Below are positions 5,165 to 28,149 of a stretch of 28,392 nt of DNA, piece after piece. Numbering within the stretch: the stretch's first letter is position 1; each line of letters starts with the position of its first letter. Position numbers and translations under genes: made by a program. Under the pieces are notes generated by a model. That model made no database searches and was not told the DNA's origin. It was given only the letters and a program-made list of their open reading frames with translations. Where the stretch lies: positions 1-28,392 of IMG/VR virus record IMGVR_UViG_3300013102_000061. The stretch is one strand, 5' to 3'. The DNA comes from a virus.

Positions 5165-6289
5165 ATGGCTAACAACCTCACCGGCCTTATCCCTGATCTG
5201 TTCGCGGCGCGCGACATCGTTTCCCGTGAACTGACCGGTTTTATCCCTGCTGTAACGCTGGACCCTTCTGCCGAACGAGCTGCGGTGGGTGAAGCAATCC
5301 GCATCCCGATTGCACCCGCTGCTGCTGCGCAGGATGTCGTTCCCGGTCAGCTGCCACCAAACACCGGTGACCAGAACATCGGTAACACGCCATTCACCAT
5401 TCAGAAGTCTCGCATGGTTCCTTTCCAGTGGACCGGCGAAGAGCAGAAGGGTGTTAACAACGGCCCCGGCTACGCCAATATCCGCCGTAATCAGATTGCG
5501 CAGGCGATGCGTACTCTGGTGAATGAGATGGAATCAGATCTCGGCAAGCTCGCGCTCATCTCTTCTCGTGCGGCGGGTACTGCCGGTGTCACTCCTTTTG
5601 CGAAAGACCTGAGCGACACTGCACAGGTTCGTAAAATCCTCTCTGACAATGGCGCGCCGCTGAGTGAGCTGCAGGCCGTAATTGATACTACGGCAGGTGC
5701 GAATCTGCGCACGCTGGCTCAGCTTACTAAAGCGAACGAAGCCGGCACCGACGAGCTGCGTGCTCAGGGTACCCTGCTGGAACTTCACGGCTTCAAAGTG
5801 CGTGAATCCGCTGGCGTGGTTACGCATGCTCCGGGCACTGGCGCGAGCTATGTCACCAACGGCGCGCTGACCGTAGGCACCACCGTGATCCCGGTACAGA
5901 CTGGCACCGGCACCATCTTGGCTGGCGATATCATCACTATCGGTAACTATAAGTACGTTGTGACCAGCGTCCTGTCAGGTGGCTCTCTGACTATCGGCGC
6001 ACCGGGCCTGCGTGAGAATGTAGCGACCGGTGCCACCGTTACGCTGGCGGCCAGCTTTACGGCTAACTTCGCGTTTAGTCGTTCGGCCATCCTGCTAGCA
6101 ACCCGTGCGCCCGCACTTCCGCAGGAAGGCGATATGGCTGATGACCGCATCACCATTACCGACCCGCGTACCGGCATGGCGTTCGAAGTGTCAATGTACC
6201 GCCAGTACAAGCGCGTGCATTACGAGATTGCTGCTGCATGGGGCTGCGCCAACATCAAGCCTGAGCACACCGCACTGCTGCTGGGCTAA
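5165..6289 (+). CDS. Major capsid protein (P22 coat-like)
   Basis: This HK97-fold coat protein forms the icosahedral shell. The N-terminal part (LIPDLFAARDIVSRELTGFIP), the RIPIAP strand, and the long helix NQIAQAMRTLVNEMESDLG are typical of the P22 coat-like group rather than the HK97 gp5 group. Residues about 225-290 form an extra beta-rich segment (TVGTTVIPVQTGTGT to SLTIGAPGL) at a place where P22-type coats carry an insertion domain. At 374 aa it is a little shorter than P22 gp5. No N-terminal delta domain for cleavage is seen, in line with the absence of a protease gene. It starts 14 bases after the scaffold stop and is followed by a GNRA hairpin. Confidence 0.85.
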   Translation: MANNLTGLIPDLFAARDIVSRELTGFIPAVTLDPSAERAAVGEAIRIPIAPAAAAQDVVPGQLPPNTGDQNIGNTPFTIQKSRMVPFQWTGEEQKGVNNGPGYANIRRNQIAQAMRTLVNEMESDLGKLALISSRAAGTAGVTPFAKDLSDTAQVRKILSDNGAPLSELQAVIDTTAGANLRTLAQLTKANEAGTDELRAQGTLLELHGFKVRESAGVVTHAPGTGASYVTNGALTVGTTVIPVQTGTGTILAGDIITIGNYKYVVTSVLSGGSLTIGAPGLRENVATGATVTLAASFTANFAFSRSAILLATRAPALPQEGDMADDRITITDPRTGMAFEVSMYRQYKRVHYEIAAAWGCANIKPEHTALLLG

Positions 6290-20042: not shown

Positions 20043-20801
20043 TTAAGCTGATTCTTCTTCACGAATTCTGTTAATGGCTTCAGCTAGTTTCTTGCGCGAT
20101 TTATCGTCCCAATCTTGTGTTGGGCGACCAATTGGTGCGCATGGTGTGATTGAACCATTTACAAGCATTTGACGAACATCAGCAACTTCTTGTGCACTGA
20201 TAGAAACGTGTGGCGATTGTGGGTTTTTGGTGTCCATTATAAGCCCCCTCTGCAATAGAGCTTGATTAACTTCACTTATGGCATGAACGGTGTTTTCTAA
20301 GTCAGCCTTAGCACTGAGAAAATCAATAAATCTTACCGTCCCACCGGAATAAGGGTCGACTGTTTTTGCTGAGTCGATTGCTGTTCTTGCACAATGACTG
20401 TGCAACCAGTTTTGTGCGGCCGACCCGCTACCGGAACCTGAAAAAACAGCCTTTAAATCGTTAGTATCTTGACACTTAACAACGAGCTTGTCGCCTTTAT
20501 CAAAAACGACCTCGTTAGTGGTTTTTTTGACGATATGAAGGCAAACCGATTGCCCAGTAGGCAATACGACAGGAGGCTCCTGATTAGAGAGGTCCCCTGA
20601 CCACCATATCTTCCACTGCTCAATCAAAAATCCGTCGCCGGCAAGCGTCATAACAAAATCATTTCGATCTGCGATTTTACCGAATCCCGTATCGTCAATG
20701 TATAGCACATGACCGTCATATCCGCGCTGGCTTAAATCATAGGACCAGCGAGAGTCACTGGCAACAAGGTGGTTCACCCTGTCATAAACAGTAGTGGTCA
20801 T
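20043..20801 (-). CDS. Proteasome/HslV-like Ntn-hydrolase homologue
   Basis: The 252-aa protein is not a usual phage structural gene. Residues 2-160 follow the proteasome beta/HslV plan. Met1 is followed by Thr2-Thr3-Thr4, where Thr2 would be the N-terminal nucleophile after Met removal. VASDSR (13-18) corresponds to the Asp17 strand, GKI (41-43) to Lys33, VMTLAGDG (50-57) to the IAGFAGG strand, and SGSGSGSAA (121-129) to the GSG/Ser129 turn. AIDSAKTVDPYSGG (141-154) corresponds to the Asp166 region. The C-terminal third (about 160-252) is helical, charged and outside the core fold. GGACGAG lies upstream of the ATG. The gene has its own terminator and is opposite to the late genes, as expected for expression in the lysogen. 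Substrate unknown; whether it is an active protease is not shown. Confidence 0.72.
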   Translation of the reverse strand: MTTTVYDRVNHLVASDSRWSYDLSQRGYDGHVLYIDDTGFGKIADRNDFVMTLAGDGFLIEQWKIWWSGDLSNQEPPVVLPTGQSVCLHIVKKTTNEVVFDKGDKLVVKCQDTNDLKAVFSGSGSGSAAQNWLHSHCARTAIDSAKTVDPYSGGTVRFIDFLSAKADLENTVHAISEVNQALLQRGLIMDTKNPQSPHVSISAQEVADVRQMLVNGSITPCAPIGRPTQDWDDKSRKKLAEAINRIREEESA

Positions 20802-21148
20802 AGATGCTCGTCCATTAACATTGGTCGGAGAATTTACAGGATTCTAGGTAAAAATCTAATTCATAAAACTTATCAAAACGTTATTAATGAATGACATTTT
20901 CATCGAAGCTACGCAACTCATTGAAAAATGGATTTCTACAATATGGTGTCGGCACTGATTCACAAAACTTTAAGAAAATTACCATCCAAAAGTCATATGC
21001 GGTGACATTAAGAAGAATCCTAATAAATTTTTATCCGGAATGATATCCTGATAGATGATCAGTGCTTATGTTTTTGCTATCTCGATGTATTCACAAACGT
21101 AAAATTCTTGGTTAGGATTTATCTGATCTTTACTAAGGGGTGAGTTTG
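20802..21148. other. AT-rich divergent intergenic region
   Basis: 347 bases between two divergent accessory genes. It is strongly AT-rich and must hold promoters for both. A TAGAAT hexamer lies on the minus strand upstream of the Ntn-like gene, but without a clear -35 box. Only very short ORFs occur (23-25 codons from 20889 and 20930), without good ribosome-binding sites. No terminator or repeat was seen. Confidence 0.5.
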
Positions 21149-21517
21149 ATGAAAATGAAGATACGTAGTATTCATGGACACGGTAAGGCCGATGAAGAGT
21201 ATGTTGTTCTAGATGTGATTGAAGATTGTAACGCTAGTTACTATATGGTTTCTGACACAACTTACACGGCAGATGGCAAAATTTCCAATAAAACGCGGCA
21301 TAATTTTTGGTTCAACCCTAAAGAACTTAGCGCTGGAGATGTTGTTTACCTATATACCAAAGTTGGCAAAAACGCTTCATCTGAAAGACCAAATGGGACT
21401 AAGACTCATAAGTTTTATTGGGGGCTGAAGGTTCCAGTATGGAATGATGATGGTGATGGAGCAATCCTGTTTGAAATTAAAACATGGAAGACCAAGAAAG
21501 TTTCTGATACCAAGTAA
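21149..21517 (+). CDS. Moron protein, 122 aa, unknown function
   Basis: AAGGGG lies about 8 bases before ATG 21149, so I prefer it to the in-frame GTG at 21140. The product is soluble and beta-rich with many aromatics: MKMKIRSIHGHGKADEEYVVLDV, then a DTTYTADGKISNKTRHNFWF segment, and at the C-terminus THKFYWGLKVPVWNDDGDGAILFEI. I have the impression that proteins of this pattern occur in other enteric prophages as uncharacterised genes, but no function can be stated. It has no signal peptide and no membrane segment. A shared terminator follows. Confidence 0.72.
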   Translation: MKMKIRSIHGHGKADEEYVVLDVIEDCNASYYMVSDTTYTADGKISNKTRHNFWFNPKELSAGDVVYLYTKVGKNASSERPNGTKTHKFYWGLKVPVWNDDGDGAILFEIKTWKTKKVSDTK

Positions 21518-21519
21518 TC

Positions 21520-21545
21520 AAAAAGCCCACTCAGGTGGGCTTTTT
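21520..21545. terminator. Bidirectional terminator between moron and CI-like regulator
   Basis: Perfect 11-bp stem AAAAAGCCCAC / GTGGGCTTTTT with TCAG loop. The A and T tracts on both sides make it work in both directions. The stop codon of the minus-strand regulator (21531-21533) lies in the loop. Confidence 0.85.
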
Positions 21546-22337
21546 GTTGCGTAGCAGATATAAAATTTCATCAACTTTTGATTCTATTCCTGAAACTCTT
21601 CGTTCAAATTCATGGGTTTTTATGCTTGGCTCCGGCTCATAAACATCTCTTGAAAGCGTGTTTTTAGACTGCCTTAAGTTAGCTTTTCCGCTCTGATTTA
21701 TTGTTATTTGAGCGTGGACAGCTACCCCAAGAATCCGAAATGACTCGTAGTGTATGGCAGGATACTCCGGATTAAGAGATTTAAGGAAAAATATGCCTTG
21801 ATCCTTAAAATATTGCCTAAAAGTCAAAAGCTTTTCTTCATAGATGCCACACAGAACAAAATCACCATTTCCAGCAGTCACGTCTGGGTCGAAAGTAACT
21901 ATTGTGCCGTCAGGGAAACTTAACCCTTTCTGCGAATCCATCGAGTCGCCCTCAATCATTACCGCAAACGCGTTTTCTCCTGCATCCAATGGCGCTGGAA
22001 TAAAATCAATGATGTTTGCATCATCAAGGAATGACGAATTGGGTTCAAGGTTGACCTGCATATGGTTGATGACGGGGATTTCACGAAGAGTAATGGTTTT
22101 CCTGACATTACCTATTTCTGGAGCATGACCACTACCATTAGCAAGCCACTCGCTTGACGCACCCAACGCAGCGGCGAGGTTATGTAGAGCTTTAAGTCTC
22201 GGCTTCGCTTCGCCACCTTCATAGGCAGCAATTTGACGACGAACAACCCCTACCTTCTGTGCTAATTCATCCTGCGTCATTCCAAGTGCTGAGCGCGCTA
22301 GAGCAACACGTCTAGGAAAAGAATCATCAAAGTTCAT
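21531..22337 (-). CDS. CI/LexA-type regulator with inactivated self-cleavage module
   Basis: The 268-aa protein has an XRE helix-turn-helix (about residues 9-65; MTQDELAQKVGVVRRQIAAYEGG) and an S24-like C-terminal domain (about 85-205). The regular Ser is present (EGDSM, Ser132). At the site where CI-type repressors have Ala-Gly, the aligned residues are Val95-Asn96 (in IPVINHMQVN), 37 residues before Ser132, as in LexA and lambda CI (35-38). At the catalytic Lys position (lambda CI TFKKL) it has Arg174 (TFRQY), 42 residues after Ser132. Both losses argue against RecA-stimulated self-cleavage. A C-terminal extension ends with a possible coiled coil (FERRVSGIESKVDEILYLL). Start: ATG 22335-22337 with AGGTG about 8 bases upstream. 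It is divergent from the Arc-like/Ant genes, the place of mnt in P22. Confidence 0.85.
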   Translation of the reverse strand: MNFDDSFPRRVALARSALGMTQDELAQKVGVVRRQIAAYEGGEAKPRLKALHNLAAALGASSEWLANGSGHAPEIGNVRKTITLREIPVINHMQVNLEPNSSFLDDANIIDFIPAPLDAGENAFAVMIEGDSMDSQKGLSFPDGTIVTFDPDVTAGNGDFVLCGIYEEKLLTFRQYFKDQGIFFLKSLNPEYPAIHYESFRILGVAVHAQITINQSGKANLRQSKNTLSRDVYEPEPSIKTHEFERRVSGIESKVDEILYLLRNKKPT

Positions 22338-22339
22338 AA

Positions 22340-22347
22340 GTGCGCAC
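22340..22347. promoter_or_regulatory. 8-bp perfect palindrome before the regulator gene
   Basis: GTGCGCAC lies 2 bases upstream of the minus-strand start codon, where a bound regulator could affect its own expression. Only the symmetry is seen. Confidence 0.3.
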
Positions 22348-22357
22348 CTAGAATGCA

Positions 22358-22386
22358 TTGACACACAAAAAATCGAGGATAATAAT
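22358..22386 (+). promoter_or_regulatory. Near-consensus sigma70 promoter for arc-like/ant operon
   Basis: TTGACA at 22358-22363, a 17-base spacer, and AATAAT at 22381-22386 (5 of 6). It directs rightward transcription toward the Arc-like gene about 50 bases downstream. Its strength implies a need for tight repression in the lysogen. Confidence 0.8.
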
Positions 22387-22392
22387 CATCCT
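22376..22392. promoter_or_regulatory. Candidate operator overlapping the -10 box
   Basis: Inverted repeat AGGAT-N7-ATCCT (17 bp) that covers the -10 box of the rightward promoter. A repressor dimer bound here would block it. A second imperfect symmetric site, TCTGT-N14-ACAGA at 22405-22428, lies between promoter and Arc-like gene. Which protein binds which site is not known. Confidence 0.55.
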
Positions 22393-22436
22393 GCAAATTG
22401 CGAGTCTGTGAGTTTTAAAGACAACAGAGGTGAATA

Positions 22437-22610
22437 ATGGAACAGGTAACAGGAAAGGGCAAGCAGATCTCTTATCGCCCACGCCCGGAAGTCCGCGAGT
22501 TTCTCGAGAAGAAAGCCGGAGAAACGTATCGCTCAGTACAGGGGATGATGGATTACTTTATGGATCAGGTTATGGAGATGGAGAGGAAAGGTGAGCTTAA
22601 CATCCAGTGA
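22437..22610 (+). CDS. Arc-like ribbon-helix-helix repressor, 57 aa
   Basis: The product has the Arc fold pattern. The strand QISYR (residues 10-14) corresponds to QFNLR of P22 Arc, keeping the outer DNA-contact residues Gln and Arg and changing the middle Asn to Ser. It is followed by PEVREFLEKKAGE (helix A), the TYRSVQ turn (RSVN in Arc), and MMDYFMDQVMEMERKGE (helix B). In P22, Arc dampens expression of ant and mnt after infection. AGAGGTG lies 6 bases before the ATG, and the gene precedes the antirepressor, exactly like arc-ant. Length is near that of Arc (53 aa). Confidence 0.85.
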   Translation: MEQVTGKGKQISYRPRPEVREFLEKKAGETYRSVQGMMDYFMDQVMEMERKGELNIQ

Positions 22611-22617
22611 ATACAGT

Positions 22618-22652
22618 GAAGCCCGGAAGTGCGCTAACACTAACCGGGCTTC
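22618..22652. promoter_or_regulatory. Stem-loop in the arc-ant intergenic region
   Basis: A perfect 9-bp stem GAAGCCCGG / CCGGGCTTC with a 17-base loop, between the Arc-like stop (22610) and the ant start (22683). There is no T tract. In P22 the same interval encodes the antisense sar RNA that lowers Ant synthesis. The hairpin could be part of such an RNA, an attenuator, or a translational control element; which one cannot be told from sequence. Confidence 0.55.
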
Positions 22653-22682
22653 TAATGTCAGTAACTTTCGGAGCAACTAACA

Positions 22683-23525
22683 ATGAACAGTATAGCAATT
22701 ATCGAAGCAGTAAACACCACTTCTCTGCCGTTTCATGGTCAGCACATCATCACCGCTATGGCTGCTGGTGTGGCATATGTGGCTATGAAGCCGATCGTTG
22801 AAAATCTGGATATGAGCTGGTCTACGCAAGTAAGAAAACTCATGGCGCAGACGGATAAATTCAACTGTGTTCATATGAACATGGTTGCGAGTGACAGAAA
22901 GTTGCGCGAGCTTCTTTGCATTCCTCTTCAGAAGCTAAACGGATGGCTATTCAGCATCAACCCGGCAAAGGTGCGTGACGACATTCGTGCTCGCCTGGTG
23001 CGTTATCAAGAAGAGTGCTTTACCGCTCTTCACGATTACTGGACTAAAGGTGCAGCGATCCGCAAGCCGGAGACCACCGTTGATGACCGCACGCCACTCC
23101 GAGGCATCGTTAATCGCATCATGGGTAAGTACGGCATGACCTATCAGGCCGTTTACAAGCTCGTGCATAAAGAGTTTGGTGTGAAGCACATTGATGAGCT
23201 TACTGCCAAACAGACTATAGAGGCAGTTGAATACTTAGCTGGAAAGGTAATTGAAGGTGAGTTTGTTGGGAAAGAAACACTGCCAGCTATTAACTTCAAC
23301 TTTGAAATGTATGTTCACAATGTGAACGTGGCATGCATTCACCTGGAGGAAGTCAGAAAATTGTGGAAAGGGCAGCTTGCCCCTGCGTTACGGCTGATTG
23401 AATCACCACTGGCAGTAAGGTTAGAGGACAGAATTTCTGACGCAGGAGCGATTGTTAATGGCTTACGAGGCGCTCTTGAGCGAGCTTCTGGATTTAAGGG
23501 GTTGCGGACTTTTGGCAGGGAGTAG
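22683..23525 (+). CDS. ant: P22 Ant-like antirepressor
   Basis: Residues 1-122 match the N-terminal domain of P22 Ant almost block by block: MNSIAIIEAVNT, SLPFHGQ, ITAMAAGVAYVAMKPIVEN, LCIPLQKLNGWLFSINPAKVRD, and VRYQEECFTALHDYW. Ant binds phage repressors and inactivates them, allowing lytic growth. The C-terminal part differs from P22: a central section (about 135-195; PLRGIVNRIMGKYGMTYQAVYKLVHKEFGV) resembles ORF6C-type domains of other antirepressors, followed by a helical tail. At 280 aa it is slightly shorter than P22 Ant (about 300). GGAGC lies upstream of the ATG at 22683. Transcribed with the Arc-like gene. Confidence 0.9.
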   Translation: MNSIAIIEAVNTTSLPFHGQHIITAMAAGVAYVAMKPIVENLDMSWSTQVRKLMAQTDKFNCVHMNMVASDRKLRELLCIPLQKLNGWLFSINPAKVRDDIRARLVRYQEECFTALHDYWTKGAAIRKPETTVDDRTPLRGIVNRIMGKYGMTYQAVYKLVHKEFGVKHIDELTAKQTIEAVEYLAGKVIEGEFVGKETLPAINFNFEMYVHNVNVACIHLEEVRKLWKGQLAPALRLIESPLAVRLEDRISDAGAIVNGLRGALERASGFKGLRTFGRE

Positions 23526-23539
23526 CTCTAAAAGAAAAA

Positions 23540-23559
23540 CCGCCAGTGGCTGCTGGCGG
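23540..23559 (-). terminator. Terminator-like hairpin, active mainly on minus strand
   Basis: Perfect 7-bp stem CCGCCAG / CTGGCGG with a 6-base loop, between the two antirepressor genes. Only the minus-strand reading has a T tract (TTTTTCTTTT). No minus-strand gene lies upstream of it, so it may end an antisense transcript or act as a partial barrier. Confidence 0.5.
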
Positions 23560-23591
23560 CTTACATCAACTAAACGATTAGGTATCAATCA

Positions 23592-24335
23592 ATGCTTACA
23601 GATAATTTAGCAGTACGCGGATCTGTTGTCACGGACAAAACTATCGATAGTCAGTCGTTGCTCGAAATGGTTAATGCTGCTCGTAAAGAGTGCGGAGAGC
23701 CAGTGGTGCGCAACAACAAGTTCCTTGAAAAAATCGAAGATGAGCTTGAAGGAGAGTTTTACACCAAAAGTGCAAAACCGTCTGGCAGTAACGGCGGCCG
23801 GCCAGTTGACGTAATTGGGATGACGATGAAGCAGGCACTTCGTGTGGCGGCTCGGGAATCAAAAGCAGTTCGCCGTTCTCTCGTTGATAAACTGGAGGCA
23901 ATGAGCCAACCAACGTTTGACCCGATGGTAGCTCTCAACGATGCGGAGTTCTTGCGCGGCACGCTACTTTCATACAGTGAAAAGGTTATCGCTCTTGAAC
24001 ACAAAGTCGAAGAGATGAAGCCAGATGTGGAAGCCTTTGACCGAATCGCTAAAGCAGATGGCAGCATGTGTATTACCAACGCAGCTAAACATCTTCAGGT
24101 GCAGCCAAAGTTTCTCTTCAAGTTGATGTCGGAGAATCATTGGATTTATCGCCGCGCTGGCGGGAAGACCTGGCTGGCATATCAGGATCGCATTCAGTTC
24201 GGTGTTCTGGAACACAAGATAACAACAGTTGAGCGTTCTGACGGAAGTGAGAAGGTAGTTGAACAAATTCTCGTTACTGCTAAAGGGCTGACCAAACTTT
24301 CTAAAATGCTTGGCGTGACCGGAGTGGCTGCTTAA
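23592..24335 (+). CDS. KilAC-domain antirepressor
   Basis: The 247-aa protein has a KilAC (ANT) C-terminal domain at about 132-242: ALEHKVEEMKPDVEAFDRIA, SMCITNAAKHLQVQPKFLFKLMSENHWIYRR, and VEQILVTAKGLTKLSKML. The N-terminal part (about 17-105) is a different module with LLEMVNAARKECGE, NNKFLEKIEDEL and GMTMKQALRVAARESKAVRRSLVDKLE, similar to Rha/phage-regulatory type N-domains. Proteins of this build act as antirepressors or repressor-like regulators. It follows ant with 66 bases between them, so the same operon is likely. Having two unrelated antirepressors in tandem is uncommon. Confidence 0.85.
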   Translation: MLTDNLAVRGSVVTDKTIDSQSLLEMVNAARKECGEPVVRNNKFLEKIEDELEGEFYTKSAKPSGSNGGRPVDVIGMTMKQALRVAARESKAVRRSLVDKLEAMSQPTFDPMVALNDAEFLRGTLLSYSEKVIALEHKVEEMKPDVEAFDRIAKADGSMCITNAAKHLQVQPKFLFKLMSENHWIYRRAGGKTWLAYQDRIQFGVLEHKITTVERSDGSEKVVEQILVTAKGLTKLSKMLGVTGVAA

Positions 24336-24399: not shown

Positions 24400-24422
24400 A
24401 ACCCGCCCAGGCGGGTTTTTTT
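24400..24422 (+). terminator. Rho-independent terminator after antirepressor operon
   Basis: Perfect 8-bp stem AACCCGCC / GGCGGGTT closed by two bases plus a T run, just before the tail fibre gene. Confidence 0.82.
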
Positions 24423-24434
24423 ATGGAGAAATAA

Positions 24435-26048
24435 ATGGATCGTCAGATTGTTTACCCGGGTGCTATCCCGCTCGAGACAGACCTGCTTAACACCAATAAG
24501 TACGCCATGATGGGGCTGGCAAAGCTCGCCGCCGCGATGATGGGGTCGAATACCTATCTGCATGGTCTGGCCTGTACTCCATCATCACCAGCCTCAATGG
24601 TGGTGAACGTGGCTAAGGGTCAAATTTATAGCCTGCAGAACGTGGACGGTACCGCTTACTCTTCACTGGCAGCAGATACTACAAACACTATCCTGAAGCA
24701 GGGCGTAGTCCTCAACTCAACCGCCTTCACGCTGACTGCACCGACTACGGCAGGGCAGAGTATCAATTATCTTGTTCAGGTTACGTATAGCGACACGGAC
24801 TCCGGTGCGACCGTTTTGCCTTATTACAATGCGGCTAACCCGTCCGTAGCTTACAGCGGTCCGAATAACGCGGGCACCGCTCAGAACACAGTCCGTTCTG
24901 GTGTTTGTACTGTTGCTCTGAAAGCTGGCGTGGCAGCCACTACCGGCACACAGACAACGCCTTCGGTTGATACGGGCTATACAGCCGCCTGGGTTATTAC
25001 GGTCGCTCAGGGTGCCACTACCATCACCGCCTCAAACATTGCGATAGCAGCTAATGCACCCTTCCTGCCGACAGCAGGTATCTTTTCAGCCGTTCAACAG
25101 GGAACTCTGACTTACGCTGCAGACATCGGCGCGGCCAATGCCTATGTGGCTTCATTCTTGCCAGCACTGCCATCGCTCACTGATGGCATGCGTGTAACCT
25201 TTAAAGCTAAAACGGCCAACACTGGCGCATCAACATTAGCGGTGAATGGCGGCTCTACTTACCCGGTTTATTCTCATGCTCACCAGGCGCTTCAGGGTGG
25301 AGAGTTAATTGCCAACGGTCTGGTTGAGGTTGAGTGGAATAGCACGCTTACGGCTTGGGTACTTTGCGGCAATAGTGGCGGTGCATTACCTGTAGCTGCT
25401 GCTACTCAATCAAACCATGCTTTGCAGCTCGGGCAGGCAACGGGTCGCTTACTCAGGGCGCCACAAATATTCAACGCTTCTGGCACATACACACCTTTAA
25501 ACGGAACGAAACTAATTCGCGTACGGGTCTGGGGCGCAGGGGCAGGTGGACAAGGGATGAGCGCTGTGGATACGAGCTATACATCTGGTGCTGCCGGAGC
25601 CTTTGCAGAATCGTTCATAGATGTATCTGCCATTACGTCCTCTATTTCGGTTGTGGTAGGGGTTGGTGGGAGTTCAGTAGCCGCTGGGTCAAGCTCATAT
25701 GGAGGGGTTGGCGGTGACAGTTCATTTGGCACATATATCACCTGCACTGGTGGAAAAACAAATGCCTCTGGAACTACAGGCGGCGTAGCCACAGGAGGCA
25801 CTGTTTTCAACGTATCTGGGCAAACTGGTCAAGGTGGCAGATATGTTTCTTCATTAACATCAATCATTGGTGGCACAGGTGGAAGCGCATTTGGCGCTTA
25901 CAGTGCATTGCCGCACTCTTCAATACCCGGAGATACAGGTGGTTATCCTGGAGGAGGTGGAGCTGTGGGGTGTTTCGTATCTTCTTCCACTAGCTATGCG
26001 TCAGGTGCGGGCGCATCAGGTCGAGTTATTATTGAGGAGTATGCATAA
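24435..26048 (+). CDS. Tail fibre protein with glycine-rich tip
   Basis: The 537-aa protein is the receptor-binding fibre. The N-terminus (MDRQIVYPGAIPLETDLLNTNKYAM) is the attachment part. The middle is repeated beta structure rich in Thr/Ala/Gly. The last 190 residues have many Gly-rich loops (GAGAGGQG, GGVGGDSSFG, GGTGGSAFG, PGGGGAVG) and end GASGRVIIEEYA, a pattern of Gly-rich receptor-binding tips. GGAGAAATAA precedes the ATG. It is the last structural gene and is separated from the baseplate by the moron/immI block. Confidence 0.85.
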   Translation: MDRQIVYPGAIPLETDLLNTNKYAMMGLAKLAAAMMGSNTYLHGLACTPSSPASMVVNVAKGQIYSLQNVDGTAYSSLAADTTNTILKQGVVLNSTAFTLTAPTTAGQSINYLVQVTYSDTDSGATVLPYYNAANPSVAYSGPNNAGTAQNTVRSGVCTVALKAGVAATTGTQTTPSVDTGYTAAWVITVAQGATTITASNIAIAANAPFLPTAGIFSAVQQGTLTYAADIGAANAYVASFLPALPSLTDGMRVTFKAKTANTGASTLAVNGGSTYPVYSHAHQALQGGELIANGLVEVEWNSTLTAWVLCGNSGGALPVAAATQSNHALQLGQATGRLLRAPQIFNASGTYTPLNGTKLIRVRVWGAGAGGQGMSAVDTSYTSGAAGAFAESFIDVSAITSSISVVVGVGGSSVAAGSSSYGGVGGDSSFGTYITCTGGKTNASGTTGGVATGGTVFNVSGQTGQGGRYVSSLTSIIGGTGGSAFGAYSALPHSSIPGDTGGYPGGGGAVGCFVSSSTSYASGAGASGRVIIEEYA

Positions 26049-26262: not shown

Positions 26263-26281
26263 GCCCGTCATTTCGACGGGC
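26263..26281 (-). terminator. Terminator of the minus-strand acyltransferase gene
   Basis: Perfect 7-bp stem GCCCGTC / GACGGGC with ATTTC loop; on the minus strand it is followed by TTTTC. It overlaps the end of the acyltransferase reading frame (stop at 26268) and lies 8 bases after the end of the convergent small gene. Confidence 0.7.
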
Positions 26282-27299
26282 GAGTCATTGCTTTTTGAAC
26301 TCTATGCCTGAAAGTCTCTATATTTCTCTCAAAAACATAGTAAATGATTGCACCTAATAACAATGAGGCTATTATTGATAGAAGCATCATAGGTATGCTG
26401 TTAGTGTATTTTTCTGCAAGCTGAGTCAGCACAAACCAATGAGCTAGGTAAGTTGAGAAACTATGGTTCCCAATTTTACGCATTAGCGAACCTGAAAGAA
26501 TATCTGATGTTATGCCTGTATCTGATACTGATAAAAAGATAAAAATAGCCCAGGCAATGCTGATGGATAGGTAACTTGTCGCAAGGTTTGGTACGATAAT
26601 CCTGCCTGTTATAAGGTTGCAAAAAGATGGGATTATTAATAACAACAAAAACATTAAGGCAAATATGTAAAAGCCATATTTGCGGGGTGGAGTATTAAGA
26701 TTCCTTATAATATAAGATAAAAGGATTCCTACTATGAAGCTAGATATATACCAGCGGGTTTCTATAGAGTTTTCCTGAAGTAAGCTAGCAGGGTAAAAAT
26801 ATCTAAATGCAGTAGTCATTAAAGTTGCTAAGAGCACAACCGAGAACACCCCGAATCGATTTTTAATGGCTTGGAGTGCTATCAATAATATCGGCAGTAT
26901 GAAATAAAACTTAAATTCTACTGGGATAGTCCAAAGGTGTGCAAAACCTTGCTGAAAAGCCAAGATATTTCTTAGTTTTTCTGCATCATAATAGCCCAAG
27001 TAAAAATAGAAAACTGAAGCTATAAAAAATAGCGGCAATATCCTTAAAGCTCTACCAAAAAAATATTCCGAGACGGATTTTATATTTAATCCATTTTTTA
27101 AAAACTTATTTGTAAGTAAAAAAGCACTAAGAACAAAAAATAGCCACACACCTATTTTCCCCGTTCCTCCTAAATAAGGTCTCGTAGCTGGTATGAACAT
27201 AACTAACGCATGGGCAACCAGAACAACCAGCACTGCTAGTCCCCTGATCCCATCGGCTGCCGGAAAATGGCCTGCTAAATTGCCTCTTTGCTCTGTCAA
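26268..27299 (-). CDS. Membrane acyltransferase (OafA/Acyl_transf_3 type)
   Basis: The 343-aa product has about ten hydrophobic transmembrane stretches. The N-terminal signature is ADGIRGLAVLVVLVAHAL (including R and the catalytic-type His in VAHA), followed by GKIGVWLFFVLSAFLLTNKF, typical of Acyl_transf_3 membrane O-acetyltransferases. These transfer acetyl groups to O-antigen or other surface sugars, so serotype conversion and receptor blocking by the lysogen are likely. The gene is clearly AT-rich compared with neighbours. The start I give is TTG (27297-27299); the first ATG lies at residue 34, after the motif, so a non-ATG start is needed. Acceptor sugar unknown. It is transcribed against the late genes, as usual for conversion morons. 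Confidence 0.87.
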   Translation of the reverse strand: MTEQRGNLAGHFPAADGIRGLAVLVVLVAHALVMFIPATRPYLGGTGKIGVWLFFVLSAFLLTNKFLKNGLNIKSVSEYFFGRALRILPLFFIASVFYFYLGYYDAEKLRNILAFQQGFAHLWTIPVEFKFYFILPILLIALQAIKNRFGVFSVVLLATLMTTAFRYFYPASLLQENSIETRWYISSFIVGILLSYIIRNLNTPPRKYGFYIFALMFLLLLIIPSFCNLITGRIIVPNLATSYLSISIAWAIFIFLSVSDTGITSDILSGSLMRKIGNHSFSTYLAHWFVLTQLAEKYTNSIPMMLLSIIASLLLGAIIYYVFERNIETFRHRVQKAMTRPSK

Positions 27300-27545: not shown

Positions 27546-27561
27546 CTGTTTATCCATACAG
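27546..27561. promoter_or_regulatory. LexA box
   Basis: Perfect CTGT-N8-ACAG core, in context TACTGT...ACAGTG, located 10 bases before the ribosome-binding site of the gene starting at 27585. It implies SOS control of the two following genes and possibly of a leftward transcript. Confidence 0.85.
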
Positions 27562-27584
27562 TGTTTGTCAAAGGAGGATTTAGC

Positions 27585-27824
27585 ATGCCGCGCGACTATG
27601 AAATCAAACACGCATTTATGAACGCTATGAGGCGAGAACCGGGTATGGGCGTCATTGTCACGACACAGGAGTTTGTCCATCAACTGGAGAGGCTTAACTG
27701 GCACTTCAGTCTGCGTGAGGCGAACCAGTGGATTAAGGCCAATACGGTGACGTTTCGCGATGCGTCGACGCAGGAGGGTGAGGCTAAAACCTACAAACAG
27801 TTCAACCCGAACGGGGGAATCTGA
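27585..27824 (+). CDS. SOS-regulated small protein, 79 aa, unknown function
   Basis: ATG 27585 follows AAGGAGG with a 7-base spacer, so I prefer it to the earlier in-frame codons, which overlap the LexA box. The product (MPRDYEIKHAFMNAMRRE, then TTQEFVHQLERLNWHFSLREANQWIKAN) is basic and helical with a possible winged-helix or helix-turn-helix look. As far as I recall, proteins of this pattern sit before UmuD-like genes in enteric prophages, but no function is known to me. The LexA box and the tight spacing (1 base) to the UmuD'-like gene mean co-expression during DNA damage. Confidence 0.8.
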   Translation: MPRDYEIKHAFMNAMRREPGMGVIVTTQEFVHQLERLNWHFSLREANQWIKANTVTFRDASTQEGEAKTYKQFNPNGGI

Positions 27825-27825
27825 T

Positions 27826-28149
27826 ATGGGCTTCCCATCACCGGCATCGGACTATGTTGAAACGCGTATCGACCTGAACAAAATCCTGATGCCTCATCCG
27901 ACCCATATGTTCATGATTGAGACGCCGATCGGATTCGCTATTATCGACAGGACGGTTCATGGTAAATCAGGAGATAAAGTGGCATTCCAGTTTGGCGAGT
28001 TCCCGCAGCTGGGGAGATTGTTCACTACGGGGATTATCACCTCAGATGGCGAGACGATTGACGGAGAGGGCATGGACGGCATCATTGTGCTGGGGAAAGT
28101 GACGGCTGAGGTTGTGTCCGTACATGAGCACAGCAGGCCGATAATTTAG
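27826..28149 (+). CDS. UmuD'-like protein lacking catalytic residues
   Basis: The 107-aa product begins MGFPSPASDYVETRIDLNKIL, matching E. coli UmuD from Gly25 onward (GFPSPAADYVEQRIDLNQLL), that is, exactly at the Cys24-Gly25 cleavage point. So it encodes an already processed UmuD' form, like HumD of phage P1. The region with the catalytic Ser (ASGDSM) is deleted and the Lys region (TVKKL) reads QLGRL, so it cannot be a protease. UmuD' proteins work with UmuC in translesion synthesis (polymerase V). I chose ATG 27826 with GGGGGAA upstream; the frame is open earlier, but that would add unrelated residues from within the previous gene. No umuC gene follows. Confidence 0.85.
   Translation: MGFPSPASDYVETRIDLNKILMPHPTHMFMIETPIGFAIIDRTVHGKSGDKVAFQFGEFPQLGRLFTTGIITSDGETIDGEGMDGIIVLGKVTAEVVSVHEHSRPII

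Follow-up and report, generated by a model that had tools for sequence, protein, structure and literature searches.

In phage P22, the immI region (mnt-arc-sar-ant; BK000583) lies late in the genome before the tail protein gene, and the ribbon-helix-helix (RHH) repressor Mnt diverges there from an arc-ant operon. Activity of P22 Ant has been reported against four repressors (C2, L, lambda and 21), and in response to RecA activity a Ser/Lys dyad cleaves the repressors of lambda and P22 at an Ala-Gly dipeptide (PMC3121763). The "ant morons" of P22-like phages are highly variable; a 2008 comparison reported that HS-1 and CUS-3 lacked arc and that their control must differ from that of P22 (PMC2629481). 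Here we analyzed a module at 21531-24335 of a 28,392-nucleotide virus sequence (IMG/VR record IMGVR_UViG_3300013102_000061, positions 1 to 28,392; this whole stretch is the window below). With a probability of about 0.76, the module is a variant of P22 immI whose maintenance repressor, a CI-type protein, cannot cleave itself. The evidence was drawn from sequence, namely the module itself, its recurrence, swaps between relatives, lost cleavage residues, covariation of recognition helix and operator, and conservation of sar; on these grounds the variant is real and recurrent, and the proposed mechanism is well supported.

The module consisted of four intact open reading frames, one on the minus strand followed by three on the plus strand. 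It was flanked by baseplate genes and by a tail-fibre gene starting at 24435, the late-region location adjoining a tail spike or fibre gene that is expected of a P22 immI-type module. A CI-type (XRE plus S24) regulator of 268 amino acids occupied the Mnt position (21531-22337, minus strand). Across a regulatory intergenic region (22335-22436), it faced an Arc-like RHH protein of 57 amino acids (22437-22610), an Ant antirepressor (22683-23525) and a second antirepressor-type gene with a KilAC (ANT) domain (23592-24335), all on the plus strand, with a terminator-like hairpin (24400-24417, plus) 3' of the last gene. A sar-like antisense RNA was placed at the P22 position (22615-22681, minus). The sequence-only reading of this DNA had proposed a P22 immI-like gene order here with a promoter at 22358-22386; the frames were open at these coordinates with matching domains, and the promoter, Pant, read TTGACA-17-AATAAT on the plus strand (11/12). 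It had also identified the regulator as CI-type, which stood; the most likely start of the regulator is corrected to a conserved ATG at 22337, in place of a GTG at 22364. Besides gene order and location, the module resembled P22 in the position of its sar-like RNA, in the distance separating the two divergent genes at their starts (90 bp in P22 and about 100 bp in the window) and in its Ant, which had 59% identity to the P22 protein (residues 1-198). By contrast, the leftward repressor was a CI-type protein (helix-turn-helix, HTH, plus S24) in place of the RHH protein Mnt, the Arc-like protein belonged to another lineage, the operators were different and a KilAC gene was added.

The window regulator matched Pfam HTH_3 and Peptidase_S24, the HTH plus S24 fold of CI/C2 repressors, with lambda repressor as its best PDB match, and was not a member of the RHH Mnt family. 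Like the lambda, P22 and 434 CI (C2) proteins, it combined a 434-type HTH with an S24 C-terminal domain; however, it differed from them in its cleavage residues, in an extra C-terminal helix and in its position, since it faced Arc-like and antirepressor genes and not cro at early promoters. The Ala-Gly present in 8/8 reference CIs was replaced with Val-Asn, and the catalytic Lys with Arg, leaving only the Ser of the dyad found in cleavable CI/C2 repressors. An Ala-Gly or Cys-Gly cleavage dipeptide was absent from all 49 CI-type clusters described below (Gly at the second position, 0/49), while Ser was retained in 36 of them, Lys in 32 and both in 29. Further, we read 31 phages, some of them near-identical, for a distant S24 (immC-type) repressor; this protein kept [Ala/Cys]-Gly, Ser and Lys in 31/31, whereas the immI protein did not. 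Because the cleavage residues were kept in one and lost in the other, SOS sensitivity is predicted for the main repressor and SOS blindness, as for Mnt, for the CI-type protein of immI. The sequence-only reading had overlooked this missing site for RecA-dependent cleavage, which would explain how a CI-type protein can stand in for Mnt.

A CI-family profile with lambda repressor as the closest structure would also suit the usual prophage repressor of the phage, located by chance among late genes. We consider this very unlikely, since a second S24 match was found far from the late-region CI-type gene in 30/34 related records and kept the cleavage residues where checked, and since the partners of the immI protein were Arc-like and antirepressor genes. 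The Gifsy antirepressor system also brings together a non-cleavable repressor and antirepressors. There, however, it is the main repressor that resists cleavage and the antirepressor is under LexA control, whereas no LexA box with at most one mismatch was present at Pant (22335-22436). In the predicted structure, the window regulator ended in a C-terminal helix (residues 239-264). The C-terminal coiled coil of Mnt serves oligomerization, and by analogy this helix could do the same.

Viral and genome collections were searched with a CI alignment built from the closest relatives, which recovered 17 loci from genome contigs where a single-sequence search recovered nothing. At 90% identity, the matches (including E. 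coli, phage and plasmid matches) formed 49 CI clusters from Enterobacterales phages and prophages, and in all 49 the CI gene stood opposite an Arc-like gene (46 found by script and three rescued by eye). The gap between the two genes was 99 or 100 bp in 25/46, with a full range of 86-121 bp. The divergent pair is more than chance, because 49 of 49 independent CI clusters shared it at a near-constant gap; the gene order was not unique to the window, and the expectation that it would be met in other genomes was borne out. Named hosts included E. coli, Yersinia, Serratia, Pantoea, Xenorhabdus, Morganella, Klebsiella, Tatumella, Rosenbergiella and Gilliamella, and the pair also occurred in an Arsenophonus phage-plasmid. 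A type like that of E. coli phage JEP4 was found in 28/5,426 complete genomes and another E. coli type in 8. Two P22-like E. coli prophages (L008, 2156-5717; L011, 2150-5717) carried two tandem immI-type modules, one CI-type and one Mnt/Arc/ant, and a ClpP-like protease gene adjoined the Mnt-like gene of the latter. In one locus rescued by eye (L034), the third codon of the Arc-like gene was a stop (about 5870-5900), in a module that otherwise looked intact.

JEP4 and the "ant moron" of the E. coli HS prophage (HS-1) had the same CI-type/Arc-like/antirepressor arrangement as the window, with a CI 45% identical to the window regulator. They differed in carrying a Rha/P22AR-C type antirepressor and in the catalytic change (Ser to Ala there, Lys to Arg in the window), and JEP4 also kept a separate Mnt-like gene. 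The HS prophage, described as lacking arc, carried the CI-type gene together with an Arc-like one annotated as hypothetical. The CI-type module was not seen in CUS-3, where mnt genes were present instead. No earlier description of a CI-type immI was found in the open-access literature, to which the search was confined.

Pant scored at least 10/12 in 46% of the family, compared with 3.4% of shuffles. Residue 33 of the CI-type protein aligned with Gln28 of 434 CI, which we take to be a base-contacting position. Arg33 was paired with TTGACACA or TTGACATA at the -35 (TTGACA) in 20/20 clusters, and the -35 sequence of the window, TTGACACA, fits the Arg33 of its recognition helix; residues other than Arg were paired with TTGACT in 13/18 clusters. 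The association gave a Fisher value of 1.6e-6 with kinship ignored. On a tree built without the helix, residue 33 changed 8 times and the independent pairs agreed in 6/6 cases (P about 0.03). The words TGTG and TGAG downstream of the -35 block split the same way, and intergenic similarity tracked the CI HTH (beta 0.43) and the CI C-terminal domain (0.42), not the Arc-like protein (0.06). Because residue 33 covaries with the -35 sequence, the CI-type protein probably contacts the -35 of Pant directly, and binding there should repress. A 17-bp pseudo-palindrome over the -10 (AGGATAATAATCATCCT, 22376-22392) is a lineage-specific candidate operator; no single consensus palindrome fitted all family members. 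At one locus (L047), the CI N-terminal domain and operator resembled those of the window and the CI C-terminal domain and Arc-like protein those of L008, a case of domain shuffling.

An opposite role for the CI-type protein was also considered. SOS-independent modules activated by a transcription factor (TF) have been described (PMC10432266), and they share with the present module both antirepression and a divergent XRE gene. Like these XRE/TF-small-protein modules of linear plasmid phages, the CI-type protein might activate the divergent antirepressor operon and allow SOS-independent induction. This seems unlikely, since a promoter so near consensus, in the window and in much of the family, should not need an activator, and since the covarying base belonged to the -35 hexamer, a site at which bound protein would keep polymerase out.

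Relatives of the two types were compared across the junctions of the module. E. coli prophages L014 and L015 were 95-98.7% identical on both sides of a differing block, which consisted of CI, intergenic DNA and the Arc-like gene in L014 and of a classical Arc and a truncated Mnt-like gene in L015. The sar-ant-KilAC block of the window was 79% identical in DNA to that of Erwinia phage Midgardsormr38, beginning 5 nt past the stop codon of the window arc; upstream of the shared block, the regulators of Midgardsormr38 were Mnt-like and classical Arc-like RHH proteins. The CI-type locus L005 and the Mnt-type locus L016 matched at 83-84% in their KilAC genes and in a portion of the antirepressor, and L010 and L012 had an identical Arc-like protein with differing CI and intergenic DNA. 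From these comparisons, the exchanged unit is usually the regulator pair with its operator, and sometimes CI and operator alone, as in L010 and L012. The earlier proposal that a CI-type regulator replaced Mnt was right about the position it occupies; however, the swap usually involved more than Mnt, the common unit being CI, operator and Arc-like gene together.

By itself, the 57-amino-acid protein gave a weak Pfam match to RHH_5 (E 0.0023, below the cut-off), and its family, phrog_10182, is of unknown function in PHROG. Once relatives were added, the Arc-like proteins formed a graded family in which 14/36 members matched Pfam Arc at E<=0.1, and the family profile matched permuted Arc (pArc; 3e-4), Arc (0.005) and Mnt (0.015) in the PDB. 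The AlphaFold model of the protein had two helices (17-30 and 34-50) and no assigned strand (mean pLDDT 84); Arc structures topped the Foldseek list obtained with this model, none of them significant. The PDB profile matches indicate that the ant operon opens with a small RHH repressor of Arc type, though a distant one from a different lineage. The sequence-only reading had correctly placed an Arc-like gene in the module, and we correct its lineage, which is distinct from that of the Arc that normally partners Mnt. No match was obtained by tblastn of the 57-amino-acid protein against phages; recurrence was therefore demonstrated from the CI side.

The Ant of the window matched P22_AR_N (3e-41) and the last gene of the module ANT/KilAC (5e-32), in agreement with the earlier call of a KilAC-family second antirepressor 3' of ant. 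Antirepressor-domain genes followed nearly all CI clusters. Domains were tallied for the genes that come first downstream in 46 operons, and one protein may carry several: Bro-N was counted in 24, P22_AR_C in 9, KilAC in 8, P22_AR_N in 7, and KilA-N, ORF6N and Rha in 4 each. The KilAC gene had been thought to mark the module as a hybrid; this was rejected, since the Mnt-type Midgardsormr38 has the same ant-KilAC block. The conservation of sar, by contrast, had been overlooked. A sar hairpin with six compensated pairs was kept across 12 loci, Mnt and CI types alike, and a promoter-like TTGCTATACT upstream of it was conserved over the same 12 loci, pointing to a sar antisense RNA common to both types of module.

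Signs of decay were present in some relatives, namely the codon-3 stop in L034, the truncated Mnt-like gene in L015 and an IS3 insertion in E. coli HS. That the module is a decaying remnant without regulatory function is nevertheless quite improbable, as the window genes were all intact and the promoter, spacing, sar stem and helix/operator covariation were kept across diverse relatives.

In the favoured reading, a non-cleavable CI-type repressor holds the immI operon. In a lysogen, it would bind operators overlapping the -35 of Pant, and the arc-like, ant and KilAC genes would be silent, also during SOS. Lacking Ala-Gly, and here also the catalytic Lys, the protein would not be removed by RecA in SOS, so that the lock would persist like that of Mnt and stay on irrespective of what becomes of the main CI. 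When a cell without the CI-type protein is newly infected, Pant would fire and Ant would inactivate resident CI/C2-type repressors, as the KilAC protein probably would too; the Arc-like protein and the sar RNA would afterwards limit Ant. Several points weigh against this account. Repression, antirepression and timing are inferred. Five non-Arg proteins broke the TTGACT rule, and adjoining DNA can recombine together, so co-inheritance alone does not equal binding. In the 29/49 clusters with both Ser and Lys, the missing dipeptide is the only sign of the presumed loss of cleavage. The Rfam RF00262 match of sar in the window (28.6 bits, E 0.0099) did not reach the gathering score of 43. Finally, the source record is a 28-kb virus fragment, and the main immunity region lies outside the window.

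With a member of the CI family as the lock on ant, a self-inactivation loop is conceivable. An antirepressor, from its own operon or from another phage, might inactivate its CI-family silencer and so provide a self-amplifying, SOS-independent trigger, which we regard as rather doubtful. P22 would have no such loop when Ant acts on CI-type repressors, since Mnt is an RHH protein. If the lock were self-inactivating, incoming phages or co-resident prophages could induce each other.

In this family, the loss of SOS cleavage by CI-type repressors goes together with their occupation of the Mnt position, and the naturally matched pairs of helix and operator lend themselves to studies of DNA recognition. 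The module predicts which prophages carry a silent antirepressor that might induce neighbouring prophages. For annotation, many genes labelled "S24 peptidase" or "LexA family protein" in the late regions of enteric prophages probably encode locks dedicated to an antirepressor.

Other genes were observed around the module. A 125-amino-acid gene without a confident family lay immediately left of the regulator (21140-21517, plus), and a gene among the late genes (20043-20801, minus) gave a weak HslV peptidase family match (phrog_1040, E 8e-12). An acyltransferase gene (Acyl_transf_3; 26268-27299, minus) was located 3' of the tail-fibre gene and is possibly involved in O-antigen modification. A perfect LexA-box-like sequence (CTGTTTATCCATACAG, 27546-27561) was found just 5' of two genes at 27561-28149, one small (phrog_3893) and one UmuD-like (phrog_3469), which are likely an SOS-controlled umuD-like pair in the prophage.

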